Shown one piece after another: positions 9,271 to 50,410 of a stretch of DNA of 64,000 bases (positions within the stretch are counted from its first letter, which is position 1; the number at the start of each line of letters is the position of its first letter). The stretch lies in the IMG/VR virus record IMGVR_UViG_3300025870_000010, positions 1 through 64,000 of that record, one strand, 5' to 3'. The notes beneath the pieces were generated by a model, which was given only the letters and a program-made list of their open reading frames with translations, had not been told where the DNA came from and searched no databases. This stretch comes from a virus. Made by a program: the position numbers and the translations under genes.

Positions 9271-9496
9271 AGTTTCTTAATAGTATATATTACCCCTCAG
9301 AAATCTACTAATTATTAAATGCATTACTAATGGGTTTTATTTTATTAAAATGAACTTTTTTTTAGTTTTTTTTAATTAGTAATACCTCGTCATACAATAT
9401 ACGAATTAAAAATGACAATTGCAAGGAAAAAATAAAAAACTTTTATTTTCTTCTTGTATTTTTTGTTGATTAAATATACTAAAATAAGTATAAATT
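9271..9496. promoter_or_regulatory. Divergent intergenic region between sigma-like and sheath genes
   Basis: These 226 very AT-rich bases separate leftward genes from the rightward sheath gene. The plus-strand half holds a clear ATTAAATA element (9467-9476). The minus-strand half has AT-rich stretches but no element I can name with confidence. No coding frame or RNA gene is evident. Confidence 0.5.
9467..9476 (+). promoter_or_regulatory. Candidate late promoter (TGATTAAATA)
   Basis: A consensus copy of the element, 20 bases upstream of the tail sheath start codon, on the plus strand. Confidence 0.6.
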
Positions 9497-17971: not shown

Positions 17972-18250
17972 TTATTTTACGAAATGATAATGTGATTCTA
18001 AATATCCACCTTTATCTTTATAGAACGCTTCGACATCATATTTCTTTGGGTCTTTGTGTTCAGGTAATTTTGTTTTGATAAATTCTAATCCATCTTCTAC
18101 TGAATCAAACTCGTGTGCCTTACCATCATCTTTAGTCCATTGTACATCACCTTTTGGTGTTATTACAACGTATTTGTTGAATTTAGATGAACGTACTGTT
18201 ATTTTATCGTATTTTACCCCTTCATTAAGGAATTCATTTAGTGCTTTCAT
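17972..18250 (-). CDS. Candidate internal head protein with capsid-targeting N-terminus (92 aa)
   Basis: It begins MKALNEFLNE|GV. The mature segment is a compact beta-rich domain (KYVVITPKGDVQWTKDDGKA) with a helix (SVEDGLEFIKTKL) and a His/Tyr-rich end (GGYLESHYHFVK). Its pattern of repeated strands with a single helix differs from its neighbours, so cluster 2 is not simply a duplicated family beyond the N-terminus. Confidence 0.8.
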   Translation of the reverse strand: MKALNEFLNEGVKYDKITVRSSKFNKYVVITPKGDVQWTKDDGKAHEFDSVEDGLEFIKTKLPEHKDPKKYDVEAFYKDKGGYLESHYHFVK

Positions 18251-18254
18251 AATT

Positions 18255-18264
18255 TATTTAATTT
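18255..18264 (-). promoter_or_regulatory. ATTAAATA element four bases from a start codon
   Basis: It lies four bases upstream of the 92-aa gene and overlaps the stop of the next. If it acts as a T4-like late promoter, transcription would begin at about the start codon. Confidence 0.3.
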
Positions 18265-19139
18265 TATCTAATCCAACGAACATAATCTTCAAGGGCATAT
18301 TCTTTTGCAATAACATCTCCTTTCATTTTATTCCAAAGGTCAGTTGCCATTTCAATATAAACTTCAGCATCATTTTCATATCTATCAATCGGTTCAACAT
18401 ATCCTTTGTCCCCTTTAATAACATCTAATATTCTTTCGTTATAAACTTGTCTAATTTCGTTTGTTATATCAATCTTTTCATCAGCCCAAGTAGGAAACAA
18501 TTTAATTGCTTTCTTGAATTTAGTATCCCAATACTTTTCTGATTTTTCAGCTTCTCCTGTGTATTGATTTATTTCATCTAATACAGATTTACCTTCATTC
18601 AACTTTGTTATTTCGTTAGATTTGTTACCAACAAACGTTTGAAATCCACTTTTCTTAGTGTATTTTACATCATAGGTAACTTTTCCGTCATTTCGTACAT
18701 TTGTTATTACTGCTGGTTCCCCATAGTATAATACCTTTTCACCTTCTTTAAAAAATGGTTTAATGTGCCAACCATATTTATCTGTTACTGGTTTTTTAGA
18801 TTCATCCATTCCGGACATACTTAATACAGCTTTTTTCTTTTTAGTCATCAACTTTATTAATTCATCAAGAACTTTACCACCTTTATCATCGGTTGCTCTA
18901 TGTGGTCTACCTACAAAGTCTTGACCGATTCCTTCTAATTTACCAGAACGATTAAAAGTTATATTACCTTTAGGTGTTTTTAATTGAAAATCTCCCATAC
19001 CTAAATGTACTAATTCAGAACCAGGAAGTACTCCTTTACTGTAATTTACAAAATTGCTATCAACAATAGTTTGATTTCCTACTCTTTCGTAGTGTCCTAC
19101 ATCTTTTGCTTCGTTTAAAAATTCGTTTAAGTGTTTCAT
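18264..19139 (-). CDS. Candidate internal head protein, multidomain (291 aa)
   Basis: It begins MKHLNEFLNE|AK and has at least three parts after that: a beta-rich segment (about 12-110), a small beta-barrel-like segment (about 128-180, with GEKVLYYGEPAVITNV) that ends in KLNEG, a second possible protease site, and a helical acidic C-terminus. Cleavage at both sites would release separate products. It is the first gene of cluster 2, behind a candidate late promoter. No enzyme motif is recognised. Confidence 0.8.
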   Translation of the reverse strand: MKHLNEFLNEAKDVGHYERVGNQTIVDSNFVNYSKGVLPGSELVHLGMGDFQLKTPKGNITFNRSGKLEGIGQDFVGRPHRATDDKGGKVLDELIKLMTKKKKAVLSMSGMDESKKPVTDKYGWHIKPFFKEGEKVLYYGEPAVITNVRNDGKVTYDVKYTKKSGFQTFVGNKSNEITKLNEGKSVLDEINQYTGEAEKSEKYWDTKFKKAIKLFPTWADEKIDITNEIRQVYNERILDVIKGDKGYVEPIDRYENDAEVYIEMATDLWNKMKGDVIAKEYALEDYVRWIR

Positions 19140-29368: not shown

Positions 29369-31048
29369 TTAAGCCCATCCACCATCAACTTTATCTTCTG
29401 CACCAAAAGTAAGGTACATTGTTTCTGGATGATGACCAGCTTCAACAATTTGGTATCTAGACTTCATTTGCATTTTCGGAGCCATAGTTCCTTCTGCAAT
29501 TGTTTCAACAGTATCAGCCATAACATAAGGCATGAATACAAGACCTGGTGTATTACCGTCTCCTTTTCTACCTAATGCAATTCTAACATCTTCCCAAGCC
29601 ATGTTCGGGTCAACATAAATTGCAATACCAGCTAATGTTCCTAATGGATACAATGCTCCAGGAACTTGGTTGATAGTATTAGCGATTGGGTAAGGAACGA
29701 ATCCAGCACAATCTTGGAATCCACTTGCAGCGTTTCCAGAACAAACTGCGAATGTAGCAGGTCCTCTTCTACCTCTTACAGAGATAATGTTAGAAGATGC
29801 AAGCATTCTAGACATTAAACGTCTTTGTCTTGTTCCTAAGTTTTCAGCACCAGTATTAGATGCATCAACTCCAGTTACTTCAAGTGTACTTGCAAAATAT
29901 TGCCAAGAACCTGTTAAAGCAAATCCAGCTGCAGCACCTGTTGTTTTATAAGTACCAACAGCACCACTATCTAAGATTAAGTGGTAGTTTTTACCAGAAA
30001 CAGCTTCAATGTTTTCGTGATTTGTTTTTCCTAATTCGAAAATCTTACTAAGAATATCTTTATTGATAACTTGTGTCATTTCGTTTGCTAAGAATTGGTT
30101 TGCTTGTGCAACCGCATCAATACCGAATTGTTTTAAATCCATTAATTGTTCTCTTGTTACTGCAGCAGCGGCTTGAACCGTTTTTGCTTCAATAGCTTTA
30201 GAGAATAATTGAAGGTTTCCAGTATTAGATTGAATAGCTTCACCTTGTTGTCTAGTCATTTTAGTAACTCCACCGAATTCAGAAACACCTTGATTAGTTG
30301 AGAAATCAACGATGTGGTCTTCTAAACCTTTAACTAATTCTGCTTTAGAAACAATATTAACTGCTCCACCACCGAATGTTGCTACAATCGGAGCTGCAGC
30401 ATTAGTTCCAGAAGGAATAAGAATTGCAATAGAGTTAGTTGATGTAGCGAATGTAGTAGGTACTTTAACAATTGTGTACCCATCAATTCTTGATTTTCCA
30501 AGAACCGTAAATACACCAGCATCACCAGCAATAGTAAACGTTGCACCGTCAACAACTAATGCTGAAGCCGCAAAATTAAATTTAACGTAAATTGGAGAAT
30601 TTGGTGTAACACCATTTGTTCCAGTAGCATATGGGTCAGCTATTGCAGCGTATCCATTCTTACCTCCACCGTAAACGAAATCCATATAAGATAACATTCC
30701 TACTGGTGAATTCATTGGAATAGTTGGAACTAATTCCAATCCAATAGTTTGTGCAGCAACTTGAATCGCTAAAGGTAAAAGTGAATAAGGTACATCACCA
30801 GAACCTTTAGTTCCTCCTGTCCAACCGTTTCCAGTTGAAGCTGGTAATTGTACAGCTCCCATACCATTTACAGAACCTGGTGTTGCGTAAAAGTTATTTT
30901 CATTTAATTCGCCACCAAGTCTTGCTTCGTAGTTTTCTTGTAATTGACAGATTGTAGCAACTAATTCTTTTTTAGATTTGTCTACACCCGTTCCAATTGT
31001 TTGTTCGATAACTGGTGACCAGTTTTCTAATAATTGATGTTTGTTCAT
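29369..31048 (-). CDS. 23: Major capsid protein, gp23-like
   Basis: It forms the hexameric shell. The start MNKHQLLENWSPVIEQ resembles the T4 gp23 start (AELLNKWKPLLE). At residues 47-50 there is a GELNE|NN site at the place where T4 gp23 is cut by the prohead protease (FLTE|AE), giving a mature protein of about 509 residues. The MNSPVGMLSYMDFVYG stretch also follows gp23 order. I use the ATG at 31048; the frame upstream relies on a TTG. It lies behind the protease-scaffold gene, as expected for a head operon. Confidence 0.9.
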   Translation of the reverse strand: MNKHQLLENWSPVIEQTIGTGVDKSKKELVATICQLQENYEARLGGELNENNFYATPGSVNGMGAVQLPASTGNGWTGGTKGSGDVPYSLLPLAIQVAAQTIGLELVPTIPMNSPVGMLSYMDFVYGGGKNGYAAIADPYATGTNGVTPNSPIYVKFNFAASALVVDGATFTIAGDAGVFTVLGKSRIDGYTIVKVPTTFATSTNSIAILIPSGTNAAAPIVATFGGGAVNIVSKAELVKGLEDHIVDFSTNQGVSEFGGVTKMTRQQGEAIQSNTGNLQLFSKAIEAKTVQAAAAVTREQLMDLKQFGIDAVAQANQFLANEMTQVINKDILSKIFELGKTNHENIEAVSGKNYHLILDSGAVGTYKTTGAAAGFALTGSWQYFASTLEVTGVDASNTGAENLGTRQRRLMSRMLASSNIISVRGRRGPATFAVCSGNAASGFQDCAGFVPYPIANTINQVPGALYPLGTLAGIAIYVDPNMAWEDVRIALGRKGDGNTPGLVFMPYVMADTVETIAEGTMAPKMQMKSRYQIVEAGHHPETMYLTFGAEDKVDGGWA

Positions 31049-31085
31049 TTTAACAACATTTTTTTTGTTTTTAAATTCCAATATT

Positions 31086-32729
31086 TTAAATCATTTTAAA
31101 TCCTCTTAACTTAGCAAGTCTTGCTTCCGTAAGTTGACTTTGAGATGGTTTTTGAATATTTTCCTTTTTTTCCTCTTTAATCAAATTTTCTTTTGTGAAC
31201 TCATTGTTCCAAAATGACTTGATTGCCGATTCATTAACGAAATTGAAAAGTGAAGCTCTTTTTTTAATTCTTAACTTTTCGCCTTCTTGTAAATCATTCC
31301 AAGTTTCTTTATACTTTGTAGGTATAAGTTGCATCCATAATGGAGACTCTTCTTTACCTTCGTTTAAATCAACATTTTGTGATTCGTTTAGAGATTTGTT
31401 GTCAGTTGCTCTTTGCTCCTTAGCTTCTAAGATATTCTCTAGCTTATTATATATACTCGTTTTAAAATCTTCGATTTTTGATTCGTTGATTTTTTGTTTA
31501 TTAACATTTAATCCTTTTGTATCAGAATTTTCTAACATCGATACAGATTCTGTAACGTGGTCGGTCCAATTTTCAATTGCACTAACTGATTCAGTTACAT
31601 GATTAGACCAAGATTCTACACCAGAAACAGTATCCGTTGCGTGGTCAGACCAATCTTCTAATGCACTTACAGTTTCCGTAACGTGTCCAGACCATTTTTC
31701 AACACCACTAATTGTATCAGTTGCGTGGTCAGACCATTCTTCTATTGCACTAACAGTTTCTGTTACGTGTTCAGTCCATTTAACCATTGATTCAAATTTA
31801 GCTTCTAAATCATTGTATTTTTCCTGTAAAGATTTGTTTTCTGAATTTCCATTAGATTCATTAACAGAATCAAATTCTTCTTTAACATGGTCAGCCCAAT
31901 TTTCTATTGCTGATAATTTTTCGTTTACTGATTCAAATTTTTGTTTGAATTCAGCATTACTGTACTCTTCTACGATGCCATCGTTTTGTTCAATAATACT
32001 TTCTTGAATTTCTTTCATGTCAGCAATTTCGGATTTAACCCCTTCTATCGCTTCTTTTGTAAAATCTGTGTATTTGTTGAACTCGCTTTCTTTGATAAAA
32101 TCCATTGTTTCTACTTGATTATTTTTAGTATTTAACTCTTTAATATCTTGCTTTATTTGTTTGCCTGTTTCATAGATTGCAAAATCACTAAATACGTCTA
32201 ATTCTGTATTTTCGTTTAGCATTCCAAAAGATTCATTTACACTACTCAATCTTGCATTTGCAAAACCTGGCGTATCAACTAAATCGTATGTAAATAATTT
32301 GTGAATCTTTACAGATTTATTTTCAGTAACAGTACCAGCAGCTCTTGATGATATGTGTAAAGGAATTCCAGCATCAACAATTGCCTTTGCTTGTTTACCA
32401 GCATCGGTGTCCAATAATTTGATTTTTCCCATTACTCTATTGTTTTCTTCATCCATCCAAATTTCTTCAATTTTATGAGACACATTTCTCAATGTAGTTT
32501 CAAATTGTTTTGGATGGTCTAATTCACCAACAGCCGTTCCACTTTCTACAACTTTTTTAAGTGCATTAAAATGTGGTTGGAATTCTTTTCTAGTATAAAC
32601 TCTACCATTTCTATTTTCAGAATCGAATTCTGTAAATACGCCTTCTAAAACATATTTATCGGAACCTTCTGCATTAGGAATAGGTTTTACTGAAAATTTT
32701 GATTTTTCTATTAATAAGTAATCTTTCAT
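31086..32729 (-). CDS. 21: Prohead protease fused to scaffold (gp21-gp22-like)
   Basis: Residues about 1-165 match the T4 gp21 protease: ENRNGRVYTRKEF, GELDHP with catalytic His72, and HISSRAAGT with the catalytic Ser at 127/128. The remaining 380 residues are acidic, helical and scaffold-like, with about six 14-residue repeats (313-398) each holding a Trp and an H(V/A)T core. T4 encodes protease (212 aa) and core protein gp22 separately, so this appears to be a fusion. Many (L/I)xE sites would let the protease cut its own scaffold. It lies between portal and capsid genes. Confidence 0.88.
   Translation of the reverse strand: MKDYLLIEKSKFSVKPIPNAEGSDKYVLEGVFTEFDSENRNGRVYTRKEFQPHFNALKKVVESGTAVGELDHPKQFETTLRNVSHKIEEIWMDEENNRVMGKIKLLDTDAGKQAKAIVDAGIPLHISSRAAGTVTENKSVKIHKLFTYDLVDTPGFANARLSSVNESFGMLNENTELDVFSDFAIYETGKQIKQDIKELNTKNNQVETMDFIKESEFNKYTDFTKEAIEGVKSEIADMKEIQESIIEQNDGIVEEYSNAEFKQKFESVNEKLSAIENWADHVKEEFDSVNESNGNSENKSLQEKYNDLEAKFESMVKWTEHVTETVSAIEEWSDHATDTISGVEKWSGHVTETVSALEDWSDHATDTVSGVESWSNHVTESVSAIENWTDHVTESVSMLENSDTKGLNVNKQKINESKIEDFKTSIYNKLENILEAKEQRATDNKSLNESQNVDLNEGKEESPLWMQLIPTKYKETWNDLQEGEKLRIKKRASLFNFVNESAIKSFWNNEFTKENLIKEEKKENIQKPSQSQLTEARLAKLRGFKMI
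31536..31793. repeat. 42-bp tandem repeat in the scaffold region
   Basis: About six units of 42 bp encode the 14-residue repeats of residues 313-398. Units alternate between two types (EWSDHATDT and KWSGHVTET style), which suggests growth by duplication of an 84-bp pair. Confidence 0.8.
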
Positions 32730-32760: not shown

Positions 32761-32770
32761 TATTTAATCA
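32761..32770 (-). promoter_or_regulatory. Candidate late promoter (TGATTAAATA)
   Basis: 31 bases upstream of the protease-scaffold gene, which leads into the capsid gene. Confidence 0.6.
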
Positions 32771-32787: not shown

Positions 32788-34404
32788 CTAAATATCCATT
32801 TCTTCGGCATCTTCTTGCCCTTGTTCCATTTCCTTATCTTCTTTAGCTTTTAACTTTCTATTAAGTTTCAAGTCAGATTCGGATAATGTTGTAAGAAATT
32901 TTCTAACTAAAAATTCAGAACTAAAAAATCGTACTTCATTCCCTTCAGCATCAAAATCAATTAATGAATCTTTTGCTGTACTAATTAAATCTAATTCACT
33001 TTGTAGTAATTCAGTTTCTTTTAATTTTTCAAATATATCATATCTTGCCCAAGATAAATTTACTTTTGATTCGAATAGTGGGTCATCGGCCAATTCTTTA
33101 ATATCTCTTTTAGTTTGTAAAACTACCGGTCTGATAAGTATTTCTTGTATTTTACCTCTTAATCTATCAACAAATCTACTGAAATATATTTCTTCTCTAG
33201 TATATCCTTCTGCCGATGATTCGAATGTAGGTGATTCATCTTTTATAAATCGGTTTCTAGGAACTTTTGAAACTGAGATTAATTTATCAACGAAATATTT
33301 CAAAGATTCGGTATCTGATAAATCAGGACCATCATTTCCTATGTTTTCAATTTGAGGCGTTCCTTGATCTCCTTCTGGAATCCAATATTCTTTTGAAAAC
33401 GGCATCATTGATTTACCGTTTATTTTTAATTCTCCTGATTCATTATCAAAATCTACATTTTCTCTATATGATTGCATCAAAGAACCAAGAGTTTGTTTTG
33501 CCATTTGTTTAGATTTACCACCAACCGGTATAACAAACTTAGTTTTGTATGATGAATTTACAACTGCCCAGATAATTCTAGACTGTTCCATAATTCTTAA
33601 TAGATTAAAAGAACGTATCAATCTTTCCGTATAAGAAACTCTATTTTCATTATTAATTGCTGAGTAAGATAAAAATATAACTTGTGCATCAGACAATTCT
33701 CTTTTCTTTACAGCATCTAGTGGATATTGTACCCAACCTCTAGTACCATCTTCATAAATTTTAGGCGTTAATGATATTGGGTCTAATTCTTTAAATCCTA
33801 TAATATTAGTATTTGAATTATCCCAAATAATTTCGTATGCTAGGTATCCATCAATTAAAAATTTCTTAACAAAGTGCCAAGCCGTATTTTCATTCTTGAA
33901 TCCAAATAGATTATAAATTTTCTTGAAATTATCATTTAGGTTTTCTTTTATGATTTCAGAAAATTCTTCCTTCATATTTGGGTCCGATTCAAAATCAACT
34001 TGTGCAAAGTACCTATCCGTATTATAAACAACAATTTCATCTGTTAAGGTATCAAGAACCATTTCGATTTCATCTTGCATTGCATACCTTCTAAGTTGTT
34101 CTATTTTTCCTGGATAAGATTGGTCAAAAAATGGAATATTCTTTTTAGAATATACGTCAGAATACGAAAAATCATACAACTGATCCATGTTACTGTCATT
34201 TTGACCATATCGTAACATATTATTGTTGTCTTGCCAACCGATTTCGTTTTCAATAGAACCTATTGCTTCGGAATTAGATATAACACTATCTTTAAAATCA
34301 TATCCCCTTCCTGATAGTTTTCTAAGGGTTGTATTTCTAAATGTTTTGTTATTAACATTTGGATTGGTGCTGTTTACTCCGTTTCTATTAAATATAGATG
34401 CCAT
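32788..34404 (-). CDS. 20: Portal protein, gp20-like
   Basis: The dodecameric ring at the head vertex through which DNA is packaged. Characteristic stretches include LRRYAMQDEIEMVLDTLTDE, HFVKKFLIDGYLAYEIIWD, YWIPEGDQGTPQIENIGN and SPTFESSAEGYTREEIYFSRFV. At 538 aa it is close to T4 gp20 (524 aa). It ends in an acidic Glu/Gln/Asp tail. It precedes the protease-scaffold and capsid genes, the standard head order. Confidence 0.92.
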   Translation of the reverse strand: MASIFNRNGVNSTNPNVNNKTFRNTTLRKLSGRGYDFKDSVISNSEAIGSIENEIGWQDNNNMLRYGQNDSNMDQLYDFSYSDVYSKKNIPFFDQSYPGKIEQLRRYAMQDEIEMVLDTLTDEIVVYNTDRYFAQVDFESDPNMKEEFSEIIKENLNDNFKKIYNLFGFKNENTAWHFVKKFLIDGYLAYEIIWDNSNTNIIGFKELDPISLTPKIYEDGTRGWVQYPLDAVKKRELSDAQVIFLSYSAINNENRVSYTERLIRSFNLLRIMEQSRIIWAVVNSSYKTKFVIPVGGKSKQMAKQTLGSLMQSYRENVDFDNESGELKINGKSMMPFSKEYWIPEGDQGTPQIENIGNDGPDLSDTESLKYFVDKLISVSKVPRNRFIKDESPTFESSAEGYTREEIYFSRFVDRLRGKIQEILIRPVVLQTKRDIKELADDPLFESKVNLSWARYDIFEKLKETELLQSELDLISTAKDSLIDFDAEGNEVRFFSSEFLVRKFLTTLSESDLKLNRKLKAKEDKEMEQGQEDAEEMDI

Positions 34405-34424
34405 ATCGTTTTCTTTTGTTATAT

Positions 34425-34434
34425 TATTTAATTA
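34425..34434 (-). promoter_or_regulatory. Candidate late promoter (TAATTAAATA)
   Basis: 20 bases upstream of the portal gene; it overlaps the stop codon of the preceding gene. Confidence 0.5.
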
Positions 34435-35040
34435 CTTAGAATTCTTTGATTTTATATATTCTTTAATCATTTCGTTATAGGATATACCTTCAAACTTTTC
34501 AATGGATAGGAATGCACAATCTACCCAACTATTGTAATTTATACAATATACTTTAGATTTTCTACTAGGAATATAAGTTCTTAATGCAAATTCGAATCCA
34601 TATTTAGAAAGTAAAGCCTTTACTGCGGCATACCTATACATAATTTGTGGTTGCTTTAATGCATTGTTTGATGCCCTACCATCTTTTTGTCTTTGAAAAA
34701 AACCACTATATGTTCTTTGTATCGTTTCTAAAATATACCATTTGTAAGGTGCAGGAATAAAATTTAAATTTAAACCTAGTTCATATCTCATTTTTTTCTT
34801 TTGTATAATACCTAAACTAAGAACTAACGGACTTTTATCGTAATAATCTAAGGTCTTTTTTCCTTTAGGATTATATTTAAATTGATTTATTTTACCAACT
34901 TGCATCATTTGATTTTCACAAAAAACTACAGTTGGGTCCATCGGATTGTTTTTTGCTTTTTTAAACCAATCGTCTGCATCGTCTTGTGCAACCTTTAATC
35001 CCTTTTTTGCTTTTATGCTAGTTATATCTTTTATTATCAT
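34432..35040 (-). CDS. Conserved T4-like virion or assembly protein candidate (202 aa)
   Basis: A basic protein with a MMQVGKINQFKYNPKGKKTL stretch followed by YYDKSPLVLSLG and a LNLNFIPAPYKWYIL segment. I recall this general pattern (Phe/Tyr-x-Tyr-x-Pro-Lys, then Tyr-Asp-x-x-Pro) in unassigned structural proteins of marine T4-like phages, but cannot name the family. It lies between the gp4 nuclease and portal genes and overlaps gp4 by four bases, so a head-completion or joining role is plausible. Confidence 0.55.
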   Translation of the reverse strand: MIIKDITSIKAKKGLKVAQDDADDWFKKAKNNPMDPTVVFCENQMMQVGKINQFKYNPKGKKTLDYYDKSPLVLSLGIIQKKKMRYELGLNLNFIPAPYKWYILETIQRTYSGFFQRQKDGRASNNALKQPQIMYRYAAVKALLSKYGFEFALRTYIPSRKSKVYCINYNSWVDCAFLSIEKFEGISYNEMIKEYIKSKNSK

Positions 35041-35513
35041 TTATTCTTAAACCAATTTTCGTCAGCAACAAAAAATACCCAATCTTTTGTTTTACAAAAA
35101 GCAATTGCTGATTTGAACTTTGACTTATTTACTAAGTAGTGTTTCATCAGGTATTCGTAACTAGTCAATGCTTTCTTTGTTTTTCGTTTAGGTTTTGCCG
35201 GTGGTTGTTTATATTCTTGAGCTGGCTTAACTTCTACTAACCAGGTTTTACCGGTAGATAATTTTACTAAAAAGTCTGGATAGTAGTTCTTTATTCTATT
35301 TTCAATAGGACAATGATATTTTATTGCAACCGATTCAGATGCCCATTTTTCAACTTGTGGACTTCTTTCACACCAAATGCAAAATCTTTGTTCCCAAGAT
35401 GAACGATAAATAACTTTTTTAACAGCACCAATATACTTAACAGATTCAGATATGTTAAAATATCCTTGCTTTGTTCGTGCATTTTTAGTAGGTTTCAAGT
35501 TCTTGATGCTCAT
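35037..35513 (-). CDS. 4: Head completion nuclease, gp4-like
   Basis: The gp4/gp50 head completion family: the motif YRSSWEQRFCIWCERSPQVE followed by the WASESVAIKYHCP stretch is diagnostic, and the YYPDFLV...WLVEVKP segment provides an Asp and Glu-x-Lys in a PD-(D/E)xK-like nuclease arrangement. T4 gp4 is needed to finish heads before tail joining. I use the ATG at 35513 (158 aa); the longer frame starts with TTG. Length matches T4 gp4 (about 150 aa). Confidence 0.8.
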   Translation of the reverse strand: MSIKNLKPTKNARTKQGYFNISESVKYIGAVKKVIYRSSWEQRFCIWCERSPQVEKWASESVAIKYHCPIENRIKNYYPDFLVKLSTGKTWLVEVKPAQEYKQPPAKPKRKTKKALTSYEYLMKHYLVNKSKFKSAIAFCKTKDWVFFVADENWFKNK

Positions 35514-35518
35514 ATAGT

Positions 35519-35526
35519 TATTTAAT
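35519..35526 (-). promoter_or_regulatory. ATTAAATA element five bases from the gp4 start
   Basis: It lies directly between a terminator and the gp4-like gene, five bases from its ATG, so a transcript from it would be leaderless or nearly so. Confidence 0.4.
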
Positions 35527-35529
35527 AGA

Positions 35530-35567
35530 CACAAAAAACCACTATTAAATTAATAATAGTGGTTTTA
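35530..35567. terminator. Symmetric terminator after the gp55-like gene
   Basis: A stem of about 13 bp (AAAACCACTATTA/TAATAGTGGTTTT) has A and T runs on both sides. It ends the gp55-like sigma unit on the minus strand. Confidence 0.75.
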
Positions 35568-35619
35568 ATTATAAGGTTCAGGACTTATAAAGGTTAATTA
35601 TAAGGTTCAGGACTTATAA
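35565..35619. repeat. 26-bp direct repeat at the end of the gp55-like gene
   Basis: Two identical 26-bp copies (35565-35590 and 35594-35619), period 29. The right-hand copy covers the sigma gene stop codon, so this looks like a tandem duplication of the 3' end. Confidence 0.85.
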
Positions 35620-36366
35620 TGAATGCATTCCATCACCATCAGTATTGTATCCAGAATCTATACTAAGTAACAATCCTTTTGATTTTTTAGGATATAATCT
35701 TTTCCATCCTTTTGCATATCCGTTTATACAAGATGAAGTAAAAAATGAGAATGGATTTGGGTCTTTAATTATTATTTGTTCTTTGTCAAAAATAGCAACA
35801 TCTCTTTGATTCTTTTTAACGATGAAATCTAATTTAATTCTATTGTAATTCGATGCATCTAAAAAGTATTCTTGTGTTTCTAGTTTTCCTTCATAAAAAT
35901 GATTTAACATTTCATCTTTAGTTGATTTTCTTAGAACTCTTAATTGTTTAGTTTCCGATAGGTATTCAAGGTCAATCAATTTCATTTTCTTGGATTTTAA
36001 ATCCTGTTCTACTTCTGCAATCAATAAGTCAATCGGATAGTTTTCTACTACGGTTGCAGCTGCAGTTCTAGGAGAACCTTTTTCTGGATTAACTCGTATT
36101 TCATCACCCTTTTTTAAATCAGCATATCCGTGAAAACGAGCAAAGTCCGGATCAAATTTTCTCCAGTTTTTAGCAAGGTCAAAATAAGCTTCTGATAAGG
36201 CATGTTGCTTATCATCCTCACATTTGTAATAAAGTTTTCTAATTGTTTTTTGGGCAAGTAACATCAACATTTTAGTACACCTACTAGTCAATTCATCCTG
36301 TTCTCTAGATTTGTAAATTTCTTCTAATAAGTCTTTCTTATTTAGGTAATTTTTACTTTTTGCCAT
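35614..36366 (-). CDS. 55: Late sigma factor, gp55-like, with insertion
   Basis: T4 gp55 directs host RNA polymerase to late promoters. The N-terminal region (about 25-75) reads like sigma region 2 helices, ending NWRKFDPDF. The matching continuation, NPFSFFTSSCINGYAKGWKR (204-223), is typical of the gp55 core (FDP..NPFAYFT) but begins about 125 residues later. The insertion at about 76-202 is mixed beta/alpha, with KKGDEIRVNP and LRVLRKSTKDEML. The frame is open throughout and in normal codons, so this is not a frameshift. It is likely still functional. Confidence 0.7.
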   Translation of the reverse strand: MAKSKNYLNKKDLLEEIYKSREQDELTSRCTKMLMLLAQKTIRKLYYKCEDDKQHALSEAYFDLAKNWRKFDPDFARFHGYADLKKGDEIRVNPEKGSPRTAAATVVENYPIDLLIAEVEQDLKSKKMKLIDLEYLSETKQLRVLRKSTKDEMLNHFYEGKLETQEYFLDASNYNRIKLDFIVKKNQRDVAIFDKEQIIIKDPNPFSFFTSSCINGYAKGWKRLYPKKSKGLLLSIDSGYNTDGDGMHSL

Positions 36367-36377
36367 ATCTATAATTT

Positions 36378-36406
36378 TAAAAAAGGGAAACTGAATGTTT
36401 CCCTTA
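36378..36406 (-). terminator. Rho-independent terminator
   Basis: A 9-bp stem (AAGGGAAAC/GTTTCCCTT) followed by a minus-strand T run separates the 522-aa gene from the gp55-like gene. Confidence 0.7.
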
Positions 36407-36440
36407 TTAGTTAAATGTATTTTTTATACAATTTATTTTA

Positions 36441-38009
36441 TTATTTGAATAATGCGTAGATGGCAGGTCCTGGAATAAAGTCAGGTAACATATTATCTAA
36501 TTCTTCAGCAGAAATCAATTTCATTTTTTCTACCTTTTTGATGATATCAGGACTAAACAAACCTTGTCCTTTCTTTTCGGCAGCATTAGCTTTTTCCATT
36601 CTTGATGCGATATAGTTTCCTATTTTAGATTCCTTATGTTCATTTACTAATTGACCTAATTCTTCGTTCAACATTTCAAATGATTTGTCTAACTCTTCAC
36701 CCTCATCAAGTTTTTCAACTAAGGCTTTTTTAGTTTCAACTAAGAATGTAACTTCATCACTTTTCAAGATGTTTTCCATTTCTTGTAACTTAATGAATTC
36801 TTTTTCAACATTTGCTCTGTTTTCAACATTCAATTCATTGTACTTAGTAACTGCTTCATCTATTTTAGAATAAATTTCATCAGTCTTAGTCATATCAACT
36901 ACTCTTGAAATATCAAGGTTTTCAACTAAACTTTTAAATTCTAAAGAATCAACATTGATATGTAAACCTTCAAGAATGTTATTGAAATCTAAGTCATATT
37001 TCTTATTCAAAGATTCTGACAATTCTTGAACATCTTCGATATCTAAAGATTCTAAAACAAATCCTCTTGTTTTCTTATCGAATTTAGAAATTGAAACTTC
37101 GTTGTTTGACATTTTGAATATTTCAAAGTTTTCATTTACAGTTTCTACACTTTTAACAAAATCTAATTCTACAAATGTATTTGCATTTTCGAACATAAAT
37201 TCTACGATAGACCTTGTTTTAGTATCTGTGTAATTGATGAATCCTGAATTTTTCAATACTCTAGTCAATTGTTGTTTGTTTTCTATTTTACTTTCGTTGA
37301 TAGTAATTTCGTTTCCTTTTTCACTTGCAACTATTTGAATGTTTGCATTTTTTATGTTTGCTTCAAAAACATTATTACCTTTATAATTAAAGACCGTTAA
37401 AGCTCTTTGAGCAGCTGCAAATTCACTTGATACTTTACCGTTGAATCTTTCAACTTTAGTAATATCACTTGTTACAATATGATTTCCACTGTTAGATGAA
37501 AAAACAAATCCTTCTTCAACTTGCATAATAGGGGAAATTATAGAACTTCCGATAGATGCTTTTTCATTTTTTTGTACACCAAATTCTGCACTTTCAAAAG
37601 ATTCAACCATTCTTCTAACGTTTGGTTCATATTTGAACTTTGCTAATGAAGAGATACTTCCTTTAATTTCTGATTCTTCTAGTACAACCATTTCTTTTAT
37701 AGATTCTACAATAGGTGTATAAGTTGATACACCATCTAATTTGTTCATTATTCTTTCTAGTTCTAAACCGTATGTATTTTCATTTAAAAATGTTTCTACA
37801 TCTTCTAAGAAATTTTCAACAACAGAAACCCAGTCATATTGCTTTAATTGTTCTAGGTACAATTCAAATTTATTATTAGTAAAACCACTCTTTAAATCGT
37901 GAATTGCTTTGTTGCAAATACTTTGAGACTCCTCGTGCTCATTAAGACCGTTTGCTAAGTCAGCAAGTCTTTTGTATAATCCGAATTTTTCAATAACGTT
38001 AATTCTCAT
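36441..38009 (-). CDS. Head-module structural protein candidate (522 aa)
   Basis: An acidic, largely helical protein with many (L/I)xE sites (for example GLNEHEES, NFLEDVETFLNE, VVLEESE and MLNEELG) and a hydrophobic C-terminus (DFIPGPAIYALF). It has its own candidate late promoter and lies between the gp15-like and gp55-like genes. It may be a head core or internal protein processed by the prohead protease, but no domain is recognised. Confidence 0.6.
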   Translation of the reverse strand: MRINVIEKFGLYKRLADLANGLNEHEESQSICNKAIHDLKSGFTNNKFELYLEQLKQYDWVSVVENFLEDVETFLNENTYGLELERIMNKLDGVSTYTPIVESIKEMVVLEESEIKGSISSLAKFKYEPNVRRMVESFESAEFGVQKNEKASIGSSIISPIMQVEEGFVFSSNSGNHIVTSDITKVERFNGKVSSEFAAAQRALTVFNYKGNNVFEANIKNANIQIVASEKGNEITINESKIENKQQLTRVLKNSGFINYTDTKTRSIVEFMFENANTFVELDFVKSVETVNENFEIFKMSNNEVSISKFDKKTRGFVLESLDIEDVQELSESLNKKYDLDFNNILEGLHINVDSLEFKSLVENLDISRVVDMTKTDEIYSKIDEAVTKYNELNVENRANVEKEFIKLQEMENILKSDEVTFLVETKKALVEKLDEGEELDKSFEMLNEELGQLVNEHKESKIGNYIASRMEKANAAEKKGQGLFSPDIIKKVEKMKLISAEELDNMLPDFIPGPAIYALFK

Positions 38010-38046
38010 TTTATTGTTCTTTATTTTTATTATTTACTTATTTACT

Positions 38047-38056
38047 TATTTAATCA
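38047..38056 (-). promoter_or_regulatory. Candidate late promoter (TGATTAAATA)
   Basis: 37 bases upstream of the 522-aa gene. Confidence 0.55.
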
Positions 38057-38062
38057 CATACT

Positions 38063-38860
38063 TTATGGGATATTTGGACTATTATTATTTCCAGTCGGCC
38101 ATATGTCCCTTTCTACTTCAATTTTGCGTCCAGCAGAATCTGTATTGTCTTTCTTATCAGATACTATGTAGATATTATTTAAAATGTTTTCCATTCTATC
38201 TCCAGCAAATAGTTCAGTATCAGTCTTGAATATAGGATAACTAGCCTGAACTTCTATCGGAAACGTTATTTGAATTTCTTTTTTATCTGATAATCCAAAT
38301 TGTACCATCCTTTCTTTATTTATATCAGATGGGATTGCAAAATAACAAGGAACTTTAACACTAAACACATCAACGTAATAATAAACGTTTTTATACATGT
38401 TTGAAAATATACCATTTATACATTTAAATATATCAACTATTGAATCTACGAATATAGTAACTTCGAAATCCATTTTGAAAGGAGCTTCCATAAATTCAGA
38501 GTTAAATTGTTTAACCTCTCCGTCATCTGTTTGTTTAAGGAAGTTTGCTCTTTTAAATTTATTAGTTAAATATTCTTCTTGTAAGGTTATTCCTGTTAAA
38601 TTCATTACAGCTCTAGGAAATTTTTCATACAATCCGGTTGCTTTACCATCTTTTTTTAATTCATCCGAATTTAAAAATATATCACTTAAAAATCTTTCAG
38701 AACCGGCAATCGTAAAATATGCGGGCACATCTACTTTTGTTTTTTTATTGTCAACAACATTGTTCCAAAATATTCTATCATCCAACGCGTGTAGAGTACC
38801 TACGATTATGTTCCTAAATAATACATCGTCTTTATTTTGATAGTTATTGTAAGTTTCCAT
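38063..38860 (-). CDS. Tail terminator / sheath stabiliser candidate, gp15-like
   Basis: A 265-aa protein whose order of segments resembles T4 gp15 (272 aa): an N-terminal FRNIIVGTLHALDD helix, a VDVPAYFTIAGSERFL strand (gp15 has a similar VPI..Y..KEHF), a KMDFEVTIFVDSIVDIFKCI segment and a strand pair ending ITFPIEVQASYPIF. gp15 caps the tail and stabilises the sheath. The similarity is in pattern only and could also fit another tail-end protein. Confidence 0.45.
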   Translation of the reverse strand: METYNNYQNKDDVLFRNIIVGTLHALDDRIFWNNVVDNKKTKVDVPAYFTIAGSERFLSDIFLNSDELKKDGKATGLYEKFPRAVMNLTGITLQEEYLTNKFKRANFLKQTDDGEVKQFNSEFMEAPFKMDFEVTIFVDSIVDIFKCINGIFSNMYKNVYYYVDVFSVKVPCYFAIPSDINKERMVQFGLSDKKEIQITFPIEVQASYPIFKTDTELFAGDRMENILNNIYIVSDKKDNTDSAGRKIEVERDIWPTGNNNSPNIP

Positions 38861-42105: not shown

Positions 42106-43008
42106 TTAAATCTCTTCATCAAAGATTACAGTATTATACATCTTTTTAACTTTATATTGACTAATGTTTAGTTTTTCTGATGCTTCTTTGATTGACTTAT
42201 AATTAATGCCATCTATTGTTACTTTTGTTCCGTTGTTTGGTTTGTAGCCATTTAACTCTAATATCAAAGGAGATTCTGAAATCGTATATTTTTTAGATTT
42301 AATGATTTTACTAAATGTCGGTTTCGAAATATTAAGATTCGCATAGGCCTCTTTAATTGATTCATATTCTTTACCATCTACTATTATTTTTTGAGTATTG
42401 TGTGGTAATATTCCAGTAGTAACCCCAATTAATTCGCCAGTTGTTATTCTTTCATCATTTATATGAACTAGTTCAGTTTCTCCTGTTATCGAATTTTTCA
42501 TAGTAGTTTTTCCTTTATTGATTCCGAATAGGTTTTTATTACTATCAAATTCAGATTTTTCTACTTGCATTATTTCACCTAATACATTAATACAAACTAC
42601 TTTACCTTTAGTAGTCGTTTTTGCAGGAACGCCAGTTTTTGTATCTGATATTTTCTTTTTGGTTTCATCTGAATGGCAAAAATATCCATTATCGTCAACA
42701 TCAAATATATTATACCCATCTTGATAATACATACATTCATTTTCTTTGATGTGTAAAGTTTCTCGCTGTCTTAGAATGTTAATATCCTCCACATATTCCA
42801 AAATACTAAATGTAAACATAGAATCTTTTTTATTGTATGCATTTTGAAAATATCCTGTGTGATTATTGTTTCGTAACATTGAACAATGGGAATTAAATCT
42901 TCTTTTAATATTATTGGTACTTCCTATATATTTCTTACCATTTATATTTTCAAAAACATAAACCCCCATTTTATCCCATTCAATATTATCAGTTTTAGTA
43001 ATTTTCAT
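42106..43008 (-). CDS. GIY-YIG homing endonuclease with NUMOD repeats
   Basis: The N-terminal GIY-YIG nuclease has GVYVF (15-19), KYIGS (26-30), the catalytic Arg in NNIKRRF (36/37) and Glu83 in QRET. Two or more NUMOD1-type DNA-binding repeats follow (GKEYESIKEAYANLNIS and GINYKSIKEASEKLNIS). Such enzymes cut an intron- or gene-free allele and copy themselves in. It sits just downstream of the gp41 helicase gene, whose 3' end is duplicated, and has its own candidate late promoter. Confidence 0.92.
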   Translation of the reverse strand: MKITKTDNIEWDKMGVYVFENINGKKYIGSTNNIKRRFNSHCSMLRNNNHTGYFQNAYNKKDSMFTFSILEYVEDINILRQRETLHIKENECMYYQDGYNIFDVDDNGYFCHSDETKKKISDTKTGVPAKTTTKGKVVCINVLGEIMQVEKSEFDSNKNLFGINKGKTTMKNSITGETELVHINDERITTGELIGVTTGILPHNTQKIIVDGKEYESIKEAYANLNISKPTFSKIIKSKKYTISESPLILELNGYKPNNGTKVTIDGINYKSIKEASEKLNISQYKVKKMYNTVIFDEEI

Positions 43009-44446: not shown

Positions 44447-44836
44447 CTATTCCATTATTCCTTTTACATCAAATCCTGGAAGAGCTTTCTTTGCAAATTC
44501 ATCAAATACGAATAAAATATCATACCCATCCCATTTCAACATTTTTGCATATCCTATACCTCTTTCTCTAAGACTTTTATCCCAATATTCTTTATTGCCG
44601 ACCATCCTATCATCCAATTTGGCCTTTGGAAAAATAGAATCTAATAATCCAGCTTCTGAACTAAAGTTTGCGTCTATCAATGCAGCTTTCAATATTGCTT
44701 TAAATGAATATTGTAAATCGGGTGATCCTTTTTCTTCACCGGATAAATAAGATTCTAAGTCAGACAAAACTTTTTTACTATTTCTAGCTTCGTTTAAAGA
44801 TTCGTTTTCTGTTAAGAAATGTTTTAAGTTATTCAT
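44447..44836 (-). CDS. Candidate internal head protein, variant targeting sequence (129 aa)
   Basis: The start MNNLKHFLTE|NESLNE|AR carries two potential (L)xE cleavage sites and retains the FLxE spacing of the shared N-terminus; T4 gp23 is itself cut after FLTE. The mature part is helical and charged with a WDGYDILFVFDEF segment near the end. It is the last gene of cluster 3. Function unknown. Confidence 0.7.
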   Translation of the reverse strand: MNNLKHFLTENESLNEARNSKKVLSDLESYLSGEEKGSPDLQYSFKAILKAALIDANFSSEAGLLDSIFPKAKLDDRMVGNKEYWDKSLRERGIGYAKMLKWDGYDILFVFDEFAKKALPGFDVKGIME

Positions 44837-44853
44837 ATTTATATTTTTATTTT

Positions 44854-45225
44854 TTAATCTAATGAACCGAATTTACCTTTACCCATACTATCAGCAAAAT
44901 CTCTTGAACCTTGAGATTCTAATTTAATATAGTAAGAATCTGTTGCCTTTCCACCTCTACCAAAATAAGATTTTAAAAGAAAAGTATCAATCGTTTTTGC
45001 TTTTTTATCTTTAAGAGTTTCTTTTAGTGTCTTTTCAACTTCCTTTCTCCAATTTTTATCGGCAGGGTCAATTTTAATACTTTGACTTGCAAATGCTTTT
45101 AAATCGGTAGGTACACTTATTGATGAAATTGTATCCGGTAATTTATTAATTGCTTTAAGTAAATCTTTTAAAGATTTACCTTCGGATTCAAATCCTTCGT
45201 TTAAAAATTCGTTTAATGCTTTCAT
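44854..45225 (-). CDS. Candidate internal head protein with capsid-targeting N-terminus (123 aa)
   Basis: It begins MKALNEFLNE|GF, an exact copy of the shared sequence. The mature protein is basic and helical at first (KSLKDLLKAINKLPD, WRKEVEKTLKETLKDKKAK) and ends in Gly-rich FGRGGKATDSYYIKLESQG. A nucleic-acid binding role would fit the charge but is unproven. Confidence 0.8.
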   Translation of the reverse strand: MKALNEFLNEGFESEGKSLKDLLKAINKLPDTISSISVPTDLKAFASQSIKIDPADKNWRKEVEKTLKETLKDKKAKTIDTFLLKSYFGRGGKATDSYYIKLESQGSRDFADSMGKGKFGSLD

Positions 45226-45229
45226 ATCT

Positions 45230-45532
45230 TTATAACTTATTTACTATTTGCTTTTCGAATTTGCTTCTACTTATAGAAAAAACCAATCCAGCTCGTGAAT
45301 TATTTTTTTCATATTTAAAAGCTAATCCTGTTTGAATTTTGATTCGATATTCTATATCATCTATTTGTTCTTCTTTGTCTGCGATGACCATATCCAAATC
45401 TTTAGATGTTTTAGGTAAATATTGAAGTACAATATCATTTCTACCACTAGTATCCATAGTAATTATATAAGTAATCCCACCGTATATATATGTTTTCATC
45501 TTTTCGTTTAAAAAATTGTTTAATTGTTTCAT
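45230..45532 (-). CDS. Candidate internal head protein with capsid-targeting N-terminus (100 aa)
   Basis: It begins MKQLNNFLNE|KM, a close variant of the shared sequence. The remainder is beta-rich with a possible amphipathic end (SISRSKFEKQIVNKL). It is the first gene of cluster 3, preceded by an ATTAAATA element only four bases from its start and a terminator just beyond. Confidence 0.75.
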   Translation of the reverse strand: MKQLNNFLNEKMKTYIYGGITYIITMDTSGRNDIVLQYLPKTSKDLDMVIADKEEQIDDIEYRIKIQTGLAFKYEKNNSRAGLVFSISRSKFEKQIVNKL

Positions 45533-46861: not shown

Positions 46862-48082
46862 TTAAAATAAACGTTTTTTAATTTTCAACGAACCTGATAA
46901 TGCATTTATACCAGGCATCGACTGAATAATATTGTTCAATGGATTAATAACTGTTTTTTCGAACATTAAATCAATATCAATTTCAGGTGCAAATTCTTTA
47001 GGATGCGCTCCTCTATTGAAAGAAAATACATTATATGCTTCCTTGTGCGATTTTGCATAATACCATTTAACCTTATCTCCGGTTCTAAGTCTTTCGTACT
47101 TATTTTCAAAAGATGGATTGTTGTTAATAAACATATTGTGAATTGCGGCACCTCTAACATGTGTACTACAACCACTTGCATAATTTAAACTTTCTTTATC
47201 GTCTAAAATATATTTTTCGTAATCACCTATTCCTGTTGTAATGCAAATATCTTCTAAGTCAGCAATTGCAAATCTTTTTTTCAATTTCAATAATTCAATA
47301 GTAATATCTCTTTGTGTGAAATTTTTACCATTGTCGAATATCCATTGAACTAACCTTGACAGTTCCGGTCTACAAAAAGGTGGCGTTGTTAAACGAATAA
47401 TTTCAAGTCCTGTCGTTTTTGTATAAGTTCCTGGTTCGTAGAACTTGCCATCTTGCCAAACAATATCTTGCGTATACTTTTTTTTCTTAACCCAAATACC
47501 AGATTTACTTATAGTTTCTAATTCAAAATCTAAATGATTTTCGGTATTGTACGACTGTGCATATTTATCAAATACCTTTTTTAGATATCCTTTTAATCTA
47601 ACTTCATTTATTGTTAATACTAAATCTGCAGCCGAACCTGTCCAATTTATTTTTTCTGCAGCTTCTTCAAATGTAACGTATGCAGAATCCGTATCTATAT
47701 AAACAACAGTAGGTTTTACACAAGGAACTGGTTCTAAGTTTACATCAGGACACATATCTTTTAGTTTTTTCAAAAGAGTAATATCCTTATGAAACATTTT
47801 ATGAAAGTAAGTATCTAATGCCTTTTCAGAATATCTAATTGCATCTTGACCTTGCATAGTAATAGTTTCAGCAAGTGTTTTATTATAGAAATAAAAATAC
47901 TTACTGGCCATTGCACCGTATATAGAATTCAATACTAATTTATCGGATTGTTCTAGTGTTGAATATATACTTGCTTCATCTTGCAATTGAGATAGTGCCG
48001 AATCTGTTTCAGATGGAGATAGAGAACTCCAATCGAAATTCTCTATCTCTTCTGTTGACATATTTTGAATATTTGCTGTCAT
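46862..48082 (-). CDS. 43B: DNA polymerase, C-terminal half (gp43B)
   Basis: It carries the second half of a family B polymerase: motif B SDKLVLNSIYGAMASKYFY (46-64, with Asn52, Tyr55, Gly56), motif C YIDTDS (128-133, catalytic Asp130 and Asp132), a KKKKY template-binding motif and the thumb. Motif A and the exonuclease are encoded on a separate upstream gene. Its ATG overlaps the clamp gene's stop by one base (TAATG), so its synthesis is tied to the clamp. Together with the N-terminal half it totals 908 aa, close to T4 gp43 (898 aa). Confidence 0.92.
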   Translation of the reverse strand: MTANIQNMSTEEIENFDWSSLSPSETDSALSQLQDEASIYSTLEQSDKLVLNSIYGAMASKYFYFYNKTLAETITMQGQDAIRYSEKALDTYFHKMFHKDITLLKKLKDMCPDVNLEPVPCVKPTVVYIDTDSAYVTFEEAAEKINWTGSAADLVLTINEVRLKGYLKKVFDKYAQSYNTENHLDFELETISKSGIWVKKKKYTQDIVWQDGKFYEPGTYTKTTGLEIIRLTTPPFCRPELSRLVQWIFDNGKNFTQRDITIELLKLKKRFAIADLEDICITTGIGDYEKYILDDKESLNYASGCSTHVRGAAIHNMFINNNPSFENKYERLRTGDKVKWYYAKSHKEAYNVFSFNRGAHPKEFAPEIDIDLMFEKTVINPLNNIIQSMPGINALSGSLKIKKRLF

Positions 48083-48870
48083 TAAAGTTCAACTTCTTCA
48101 TGTAAAGTAATAACTACTTCCATAGTTTTATCGACAGTTTCAAAGATAATCTTATCTTCATCTAAGATTGGATAAACATTATATGAATTTGCATCAACAG
48201 CTCTGAATAATTTCTTATCTAACTTGTATGATTTTTCTCCACCACCAACAAGACCTTCGAATTCTTCATCTATATCAATAGAATATGAACCTTCTGAACA
48301 AACCTTTACTTGACCGTTAACTTTAAATTCTAATTCATCACTTGAATCAAAATCCATAAATTTCTTAACTTGCAAGATTTCGTTTGCAGTCATTTTAAAG
48401 TTACAATCAGAAGCTGAAGTATCTTTTACTTGTGCAATCTTTTCTTCTGGAACATTTGCGAACTCAAAAAGTGTTGGGTCTGCAGCATCTAAAGTTAATG
48501 AAATTTTAGGACTGGAAACTTTCATACTTTCTCCAAAGTATTCACCATCTAATTCAGAATACACAATTTCGATTTTAATTTCGCCACCACTTAAAAAACT
48601 AAATGCTTTCTTTACTTTGTTACCATCGTAAAAACAAAGTTTAATAGGTGATGATAAATTTTCATTATCTAAATTTGATTCGCCACATAATTCGCCTATT
48701 TGCATTCTCATACTTTTGATAAGAGTTCCTGATGAATTGTGTGCATCGGTTCTGATTCCTTCTTGGTCTATTTTAAAATAAATAGTTGAGGCGTCATCTA
48801 AAGGAATTAACGAATCTATAAAGTTATTGAACTTTACTAAATCTACGGTTTTTAATACTACTTTTTTCAT
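48082..48870 (-). CDS. 45: Sliding clamp, gp45-like
   Basis: A processivity clamp for the polymerase; in T4 it also activates late transcription. The alternating strand pattern ends in the clamp-like DANSYNVYPILDEDKIIFET block, and earlier segments such as NFKMTANEILQVKKFM fit a clamp inter-domain region. At 262 aa it is longer than T4 gp45 (228 aa). Unusually it lies between the two polymerase halves. The call is by pattern and position rather than strong identity. Confidence 0.75.
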   Translation of the reverse strand: MKKVVLKTVDLVKFNNFIDSLIPLDDASTIYFKIDQEGIRTDAHNSSGTLIKSMRMQIGELCGESNLDNENLSSPIKLCFYDGNKVKKAFSFLSGGEIKIEIVYSELDGEYFGESMKVSSPKISLTLDAADPTLFEFANVPEEKIAQVKDTSASDCNFKMTANEILQVKKFMDFDSSDELEFKVNGQVKVCSEGSYSIDIDEEFEGLVGGGEKSYKLDKKLFRAVDANSYNVYPILDEDKIIFETVDKTMEVVITLHEEVEL

Positions 48871-48901: not shown

Positions 48902-50410
48902 TTATTTACGGTTTTGTTTTATTTCATGTGCTATTTTTGCACATAATTTTGAACGATATTGATTTTTCTTTCTATTTGCATACAATTCATCATATACTCC
49001 TTTCAATGTCGATTTTCCTTTTTTGAATATACAACCGGATACTGAAATGACCTCATCGTTTTTAGGTCTTTCTATTTCAATAGATAATGGTTTATACTTA
49101 CTATAATATTTTAGGTCATTTGTTTCTTTTCTATCAAAGTTTTCAAAACCTAATTCTAAGAAACGAGAAATAGATGGATACAGTGAACTAAAATCATAAC
49201 AAGCAGTTAAAGTATGCAAACCAGCAATTGGTGATTTTACAAAGGCTCCCTCGTACCATTCCTTTTGTCTTTGAGATATATCAATAATCGGCATAACTTT
49301 TGATTTTGAAGTATAAGCCTTAGACATGTATCCTTCGGTAACGTTTACAGCAGAATCCGCTTTGTCTATTGGATTACAAGAACCATTTCCTTGTGCCAAG
49401 ATTGCAGAAAATGGTCGTCTTTTTTCGTGGATCAACAAAACAAGAATAGTATCGACAGCATTATAAAGACAATATGTATCATAATCCTTTGCGTACATTT
49501 CTTTTAAGACATCACCATTCATTACTGGATAGTTTCCGTATTTCAACTTTTTTACCTTTAATACTTTCGAAGATACAAAATCTAAAGATTTAGATTCTTT
49601 TACTTTTATACTTCTATCGAATGCATCAAAATAATACATATAGTCAACAACCGCAAAGTGATGCGGAACTTTACCTACATCTTTTTTGTTATTCAATTTG
49701 TTGGTAGGAGAAATAGATTTATAATCAACTTTAAGGTTATCCATTCTTTTAGTTAAGAAAGGCCAATCAAATCCGTTGTCATTTGCCCAATTTGCTCTGA
49801 ACGTATTTATAAAGTTCCATCCTGTTATGACAGGAAACTTTGAACATATCTTTACAAACGATTCTAAAAGTTTTACTTCATCAGGAATATGAACATATTT
49901 CATTACAATTTTCAAATCAGTTACCTTAACAAAATAATCCGATAAGAATTCATTCATTTTCTTTTGCTTATCGTAATCGAAATTTTCTTTTTCTCCTAAT
50001 ATAACAACTTGAATTTTATTATTGTCATCTTTCCAACAAACTGTTATTGCAGTTATTTTTTCCTTAGCTAAAGTTACATCAGGGAATCCTTCGTGAATAT
50101 CTGTTTCAATATCACAAAATAAAATCTTAGGCATATTAAATTCATACAATATGTTTTTATATTCGGGTTGCGTATTGATCCATTCCCAGATACTTTTTTT
50201 GTCTATTGTATCATTATCTTTGTAAGAAATTCTTACAACTCTTTTGTCATCCCAAGATTTGTGTTTGATGTCAGCATTAGGACCTTCATAGTATCTCCAT
50301 TTCCAGAAATCTCTTTTTTTAACAGACAAAATTTGTCTATTTCTATCAGAATCTATATATGAAATTTTAACAGTATCTGAATACTTGTTTTGTTCTATGT
50401 CTAATATCAT
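48902..50410 (-). CDS. 43A: DNA polymerase, N-terminal half (gp43A)
   Basis: It holds the N-terminal domain, the 3'-5' exonuclease (ExoI FCDIET with Asp100 and Glu102; ExoII around GWN...NGFDWPF, with about ten extra residues; ExoIII Asp320), YEGAF and palm motif A DFSSLYPS (406-413). It ends in the fingers region (ANRKKNQYRSKLCAKIA) just before the expected motif B. The stop is clean and the rest follows as a separate gene beyond the clamp gene. Two subunits would have to associate. Confidence 0.92.
   Translation of the reverse strand: MILDIEQNKYSDTVKISYIDSDRNRQILSVKKRDFWKWRYYEGPNADIKHKSWDDKRVVRISYKDNDTIDKKSIWEWINTQPEYKNILYEFNMPKILFCDIETDIHEGFPDVTLAKEKITAITVCWKDDNNKIQVVILGEKENFDYDKQKKMNEFLSDYFVKVTDLKIVMKYVHIPDEVKLLESFVKICSKFPVITGWNFINTFRANWANDNGFDWPFLTKRMDNLKVDYKSISPTNKLNNKKDVGKVPHHFAVVDYMYYFDAFDRSIKVKESKSLDFVSSKVLKVKKLKYGNYPVMNGDVLKEMYAKDYDTYCLYNAVDTILVLLIHEKRRPFSAILAQGNGSCNPIDKADSAVNVTEGYMSKAYTSKSKVMPIIDISQRQKEWYEGAFVKSPIAGLHTLTACYDFSSLYPSISRFLELGFENFDRKETNDLKYYSKYKPLSIEIERPKNDEVISVSGCIFKKGKSTLKGVYDELYANRKKNQYRSKLCAKIAHEIKQNRK

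Follow-up and report, generated by a model that had tools for sequence, protein, structure and literature searches.

How can a phage sigma factor, which directs RNA polymerase to its starting points, carry a predicted folded domain in the middle of region 2, the most conserved part of sigma factors, whose specificity loop holds the key melted base, and what would such a domain do there? This question is raised by the open reading frame (ORF) 35614-36366 in the window, i.e., the whole stretch of 64,000 nucleotides analysed here (positions 1 to 64,000 of IMG/VR virus record IMGVR_UViG_3300025870_000010). A first-pass annotation, made from the DNA letters, regarded this ORF as a gp55-like late sigma factor whose core is interrupted between FDPDF and NPFSFFT by about 125 residues of beta-rich texture, with the frame left intact. 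The ORF, on the minus strand, starts with ATG and contains zero internal stops; the two motifs lie where the annotation had placed them (residues 71-75 and 204-210 of the protein), and the interruption amounts to about 130 residues. The features of the locus and its surroundings are collected in Table 1.

Table 1. Coordinates of the sigma gene, its parts and other features in the window (AF2, AlphaFold2)
Feature	Position	Strand	Basis or remark
gp55-type late sigma factor gene	35614..36366	-	250 aa, start codon 36366-36364; ORF, structural match, alignment
Sigma region 2, first half (residues 1-71, helices H1-H3)	36154..36366	-	AF2 helices (10-22, 28-43, 50-70), T4 gp55 alignment
SH3-like barrel, first half (residues 75-112)	36031..36144	-	Strands 89-92, 102-110; same strands in L009 match Tudor/NusG-KOW barrels
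Inner fast-evolving module (residues 113-174)	35845..36030	-	Nested in barrel, missing from L009; alignment
SH3-like barrel, second half (residues 175-203)	35758..35844	-	Strands 176-184, 187-194; conserved in all barrel carriers
Sigma region 2, second half (residues 204-250)	35614..35757	-	NPFSFFT helix (AF2 helix 205-224), C-terminal tail DGDGMHSL and stop
GATTAAATA late-promoter-like motif	38047..38055	-	Upstream of 522-aa gene preceding sigma gene
GATTAAATA motif	32761..32769	-	Upstream of head maturation protease gene
GATTAAATA motif	9468..9476	+	Upstream of tail sheath gene
gp4-like head closure	35037-35534		
gp2-like DNA-end protector	34432-35040		
Portal	32788-34404		
Head maturation protease	31086-32729		
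Major head protein	29369-31081		
Tail sheath	9497-12622		
DNA polymerase, split in two ORFs	46862-48082 and 48902-50410	-	
Leader-bearing ORFs	2098-2379, 2406-2717, 17170-19139, 44447-45532, 58288-59337	- (all)	
Free-standing homing-type endonuclease	42106-43008	-	GIY-YIG with NUMOD/I-TevI-like parts
Free-standing homing-type endonuclease	54316-55149	+	HNH with NUMOD4

The window is part of a 73.6-kb virus record with T4-type genes, and it also encodes UvsX, SbcC/D and a clamp loader. Between the two polymerase ORFs lies a 262-aa ORF (48082-48870) with zero PHROG or Pfam matches, which could be the sliding clamp by its position and length. A C-terminal tail common to gp55, the polymerase and other proteins of the window was looked for as a candidate clamp-binding motif and not seen. 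An N-terminal leader like MKALNEFLNEA/G recurs in about eleven ORFs of the window that differ in other respects; it looks like a capsid-targeting peptide that is cut by the head protease and marks head-packed proteins.

Regarding the identity of the sigma gene, comparison of an AF2 model of the window protein (mean pLDDT 73.6, pTM 0.45) by VIA-align revealed T4 gp55 within the RNAP-promoter open complex (PDB 7d7c chain F) as the top match, with Z 13.4 over 98 residues at 2.4 A; the match spans residues 7 to 230 and is aligned on either side of the insert. The same chain is likewise the best match (Z 13.3, 98 residues, 2.4 A) of the AF2 model (mean pLDDT 72.4, pTM 0.54) of L009, a relative from IMG/VR 3300045526_000110 that carries a shorter insert. 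A Foldseek search with the whole window model gave zero matches at E<=0.001. The profile scores of the window protein are weak (phrog_234, E 0.044; Pfam Sigma70_r2, E 0.037, below the cut-off), as expected if the insert splits the match; insert-free relatives, which align with both halves of the window protein, score clearly (7e-13 and 1.8e-6). The C-terminal tail, which has the consensus DG.GMH[SN][LIF] among insert carriers, is disordered yet conserved. By predicted structure and alignment, the ORF is a T4 gp55-type late sigma factor with region 2 split by about 130 residues, and both halves of region 2 are predicted to form the sigma fold still. The model does not show a single continuous fold unrelated to sigma region 2, since T4 gp55 is the top match around the insert, and the first-pass identification is borne out by structure comparison, alignment and the insert-free relatives alike.

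Relatives without the insert show what it replaces. The junction between the 2.2 helix (...NF[ND]) and the 2.3 helix (NAFAYFT) comprises 4-7 residues in 154/154 insert-free relatives fetched from IMG/VR (for example, NFNPEKSTNAFAYFT), so that the insert of the window protein, about 130 residues longer than this loop, corresponds to about residues 72/75-203. It has been reported that F86, H95, Y97 and T99 of T4 gp55 accommodate the bases flipped out at -12, -9 and -8, and that alanine substitution of pocket residues impairs open-complex formation (PMC7892883). F86, H95, Y97 and T99 align with F71, F206, F208 and T210 of the window protein; F86 and T99 are thus kept, and the pocket is altered by H95 -> F206 and Y97 -> F208, as well as by N13 -> K10. 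The acidic H3 residues of T4 gp55 for clamp-helix binding, E70, D74 and E77, align with H55, E59 and F62, the last of which adjoins D63. The insert would, from helix order, occupy the H3-H4 "specificity loop" of region 2.

The beta-rich texture noted in the first-pass annotation is reproduced by the AF2 model, in which seven strands (89-92, 102-110, 130-136, 141-147, 164-170, 176-184 and 187-194) fall within the insert and the remainder of the protein is helical. The simplest form of the insert is found in L009, whose approximately 65 residues are predicted to form an SH3-like barrel, a five-strand fold with a 3-10 turn. This predicted barrel matches the MTF2 Tudor region (Z 9.0, 53 residues, 1.5 A) and the KOW domain of Aquifex NusG (Z 8.3, 55 residues, 1.8 A, 22% identity), on a scale where the tool flags Z of 7-8 as common. 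KOW (PF00467) gave zero matches in the record at E<=10 and matched in 14/14 control genomes; as the KOW sequence motif is absent, the insert is not filed as KOW. There were also zero Pfam matches to the Tudor family for the insert or the whole protein, and a profile search of solved-structure sequences gave a chance hit only. "SH3-like small barrel" is a fair description of the predicted fold, and kinship to Tudor or KOW stays at structural likeness. In the window protein and eight other relatives, an inner module of about 60 residues (a-b-b-a-b) lies between barrel strands 2 and 3, and its sole structural match, to the PulL C-terminal domain, is weak (Z 5.6). The insert of a further carrier, L139, is longer still (276-aa protein), and profile comparison detected no sequence homology between it and the barrel. 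By eye, its last strands and flanks resemble the barrel.

An insert occurs at this point in ten other contigs, and the L139 sequence is identical in two assemblies; the insert is therefore neither chance nor an assembly artefact. No insert carriers were found in cellular genomes. In a tree built on the sigma core, with the insert removed and T4 as the outgroup, the ten barrel carriers group together (support 99/91) and are joined by L139 (99/93), so that the 11 carriers form one clade, nested among insert-free lineages. Hence, the simplest reading is that the insert was gained once, on that branch. Comparisons of the window barrel with those of L001, L002, L003 and L006 gave dN/dS of about 0.15, 0.10, 0.06 and 0.09, respectively, by which measure the barrel is under purifying selection. 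The inner module evolves several times faster than the barrel: between the window and L003, it shows 30% identity, as against 100% for the first core half and 93% for the barrel, and its dS is higher too, the inner values being rough and the inner alignment poor. From these sequences, the inner module looks as if it had been exchanged as a cassette. In insert-free marine phages (L140-L154, L176 and L011), the ORF that lies just upstream of gp55 ends in a domain with an SH3-like sequence pattern (KKGDEVMVNAEEYASLGD...), and the upstream neighbour of the carriers is without this C-terminal domain. The tempting idea that such a domain moved into gp55 is not supported by profile comparison, in which the match was limited to 16 columns at 38%.

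Frequencies of 8-mers within 80 bases before predicted genes were compared with those in the whole sequence, a method validated by its recovery of TATAAATA in T4 (10 vs 0.5 expected). This k-mer enrichment with a T4 control was preferred to an EM search without seeds, which on small sets ended up with G-rich words that resemble coding sequence. In the window, GATTAAATA is present in 14/71 upstream regions (0.6 expected), with 15 copies in the whole window. It is enriched in 8/8 tested members of the window clade, the seven others, including the barrel-only L009, having counts of 6-14 against 0.3-0.6 expected. The phage with L139 is enriched for ATTAAATA upstream of genes (25 vs 6.7 by second-order Markov expectation), and (G)ATTAAATA is enriched upstream of genes in the carrier genomes overall. 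In insert-free marine and lake phages and LR756500, the enriched word is GATATATA or AATATATA, and GATTAAATA was not found in insert-free G009-G012, LR756500 or the lake set. On the simplest alignment, GATTAAATA would be GAT-AAATA plus one extra T, and the putative late promoter element of the carriers is possibly one base longer than that of their insert-free relatives. The insert and the motif change represent one evolutionary event, and their link is therefore a correlation on a single branch. The Flavobacterium phage MaF61, which has an insert at the same junction, shows the 8-base motif GATAAATA (14 vs 0.7 expected); its insert is thus not accompanied by a lengthened word, and a single lineage carries the link between insert and motif. 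Upstream regions of MaF61 (L131-L133) are also enriched in a further motif, TTGCAACAA (for TGCAACAA, 12 against 0.8 expected), which perhaps represents another promoter class or an operator.

We propose that the insert acts as an integral domain of the sigma factor, giving the specificity loop its shape or keeping it stable. On this view, a small SH3-like barrel entered the H3-H4 loop of the gp55 of a T4-like phage in a single lineage, with the frame preserved, and most carriers have a second module within the b2-b3 turn of the barrel. Taking the place of the short loop, the barrel would pack against region 2 or next to it, at the upstream end of the transcription bubble, keep the loop ends shaped to accept flipped non-template bases and help to set which -10-like word gets read, with the variable inner module probably facing outward, toward a host- or phage-specific partner. 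The barrel would thus be the in-cis counterpart of separate loop-holding factors. The ORF, the insertion site, the predicted barrel, the single clade of carriers, the purifying selection and the different upstream motif are observed; contacts with DNA or polymerase, an effect on promoter choice and the role of the inner module are inferred, and we give the explanation about an even chance of being right. A folded domain inside the specificity loop, in a phage sigma factor that is apparently functional, would be evidence that grafting of a domain can remodel the reading of promoters. This idea can be tested directly, since carriers differ from insert-free relatives in motif.

The barrel might instead be a docking domain for another protein, such as the beta lobe of the host polymerase, a NusG-type or ribosomal partner or a phage coactivator, in which case the loop would merely tolerate insertions, the barrel would have no part in promoter reading, and the altered pocket residues would cause the motif change. 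SH3-like barrels are common protein-binding modules, the NusG KOW domain is among the structural neighbours of the barrel, and a fast-evolving, exchanged-looking inner module is what is expected of a partner-facing surface. The insert of MaF61 without the longer motif also fits docking, as do the pocket differences, of which Y97 -> F208 and N13 -> K10 alone could change the promoter word. However, the insertion point lies exactly between base-pocket residues, not in a free surface loop or tail, the barrel-only L009 already has the GATTAAATA motif, and the partner is so far only hypothetical; we consider docking as the sole role somewhat unlikely. A more far-reaching form of the proposed loop-shaping role, that grafting of the barrel rewired promoter reading to a -10-like element longer by one base (GAT-T-AAATA) and that the nested exchangeable module tunes the factor to the host, is doubtful at present; if true, it would be a natural example of a sigma factor that altered both promoter word and spacing by taking up a domain in its reading loop.

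The first-pass annotation had offered two guesses on the nature of the insert, an added working domain or a frame-keeping remnant of an invading element; the first is favoured by the predicted folded barrel and its purifying selection, and the second is not supported. The two homing endonucleases of the window and the high variability of the inner module would suit an intein, intron or homing element, or a tolerated insert of little function. However, there are zero Pfam or NCBIfam (intein/Hint) matches for the insert or the protein and zero Rfam matches for group I/II introns in 34400-38100 at E<=1; the frame is open across the insert, whose end (...IIIKDP|N) is without the terminal HN-C/S/T expected of an intein. 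These negatives, together with the lack of decay, speak against an intein, intron or homing remnant, and the conservation of a barrel in ten phages at such low dN/dS, with a predicted fold, makes the broader reading of a tolerated or remnant insert quite improbable. As to mobile elements elsewhere, the ORF right after gp55 in LR756500 (L011 2971-5007; 537 aa, endonuclease-like, DUF7487) ends in NAEIYSI like gp55, as if an invading gene had copied the end of gene 55. Finally, it is most improbable that the window copy is a specialised or decaying paralogue of an insert-free gp55 elsewhere in the genome, because, even if the record may be a fragment and several T4 contact residues are changed (E70 -> H55, E77 -> F62), the gp55 match is the single one in the 73.6-kb record, it precedes the gp4-like, gp2-like and portal genes as in insert-free relatives, the counterparts of F86 and T99 are conserved along with the C-terminal tail, and upstream regions show a strong motif of the gp55 type.

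A review of T4 late transcription describes the conservation of gp55 without an insert (PMC2988020), and no description of such an insertion in gp55 or another sigma factor was found in the open literature searched, the coverage of which is incomplete; its novelty is thus provisional. T4 gp55 (7d7c_F; PHROG 234) shares with the window protein the region-2 fold, the helix order, F86/T99, the T4-like head and tail gene context and the TATAAATA-like motif class. It differs in lacking the approximately 130 extra H3-H4 residues, in the pocket residues described above, in its upstream motif (TATAAATA as against GATTAAATA) and in having a clamp-binding tail where the window protein has DG.GMHSL. The insert-free gp55 proteins of marine and lake phages (L140-L215, L042-L121, LR756500 and Lak phages), the closest of which show 55-64% identity in the best aligned segment, have a similar C-terminal tail and, in several cases, the same downstream neighbours, and are set apart by the short loop and the upstream motif GATATATA or AATATATA. 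A parallel in a cultured phage is MaF61, a Flavobacterium phage of myovirus shape (PMC13269007), in which the unannotated gp55-like ORF75 (XYH49378.1) is interrupted at the same junction by about 130 aa and shows about 26% identity overall to the window protein. In profile comparison, its match starts in the sigma core and reaches into the first two strands of the barrel (prob 97.5, 103 columns), the tree test gave an AU p of 0.18 for one clade with the other carriers, and no relatives of ORF75 were found in IMG/VR; being cultured, MaF61 would provide a laboratory system. The Tudor (MTF2, PHF1) and NusG KOW barrels have the same topology as the predicted barrel of the window clade (Z 8-9 over 51-55 residues), whereas the barrel of the window protein has no sequence-family match to them and contains the inner module between its strands 2 and 3. 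In function, the closest counterparts would be Crl, which touches the specificity loop of sigma-S and stabilises open complexes (PMC6917491), and the SI3 head, which does so with cyanobacterial sigma-A (PMC10120043). Both would act on the same region-2 loop as the window insert, a likeness by site of action: Crl is a separate protein and the SI3 head is part of beta-prime, whereas the barrel of the window protein sits inside the sigma factor itself.
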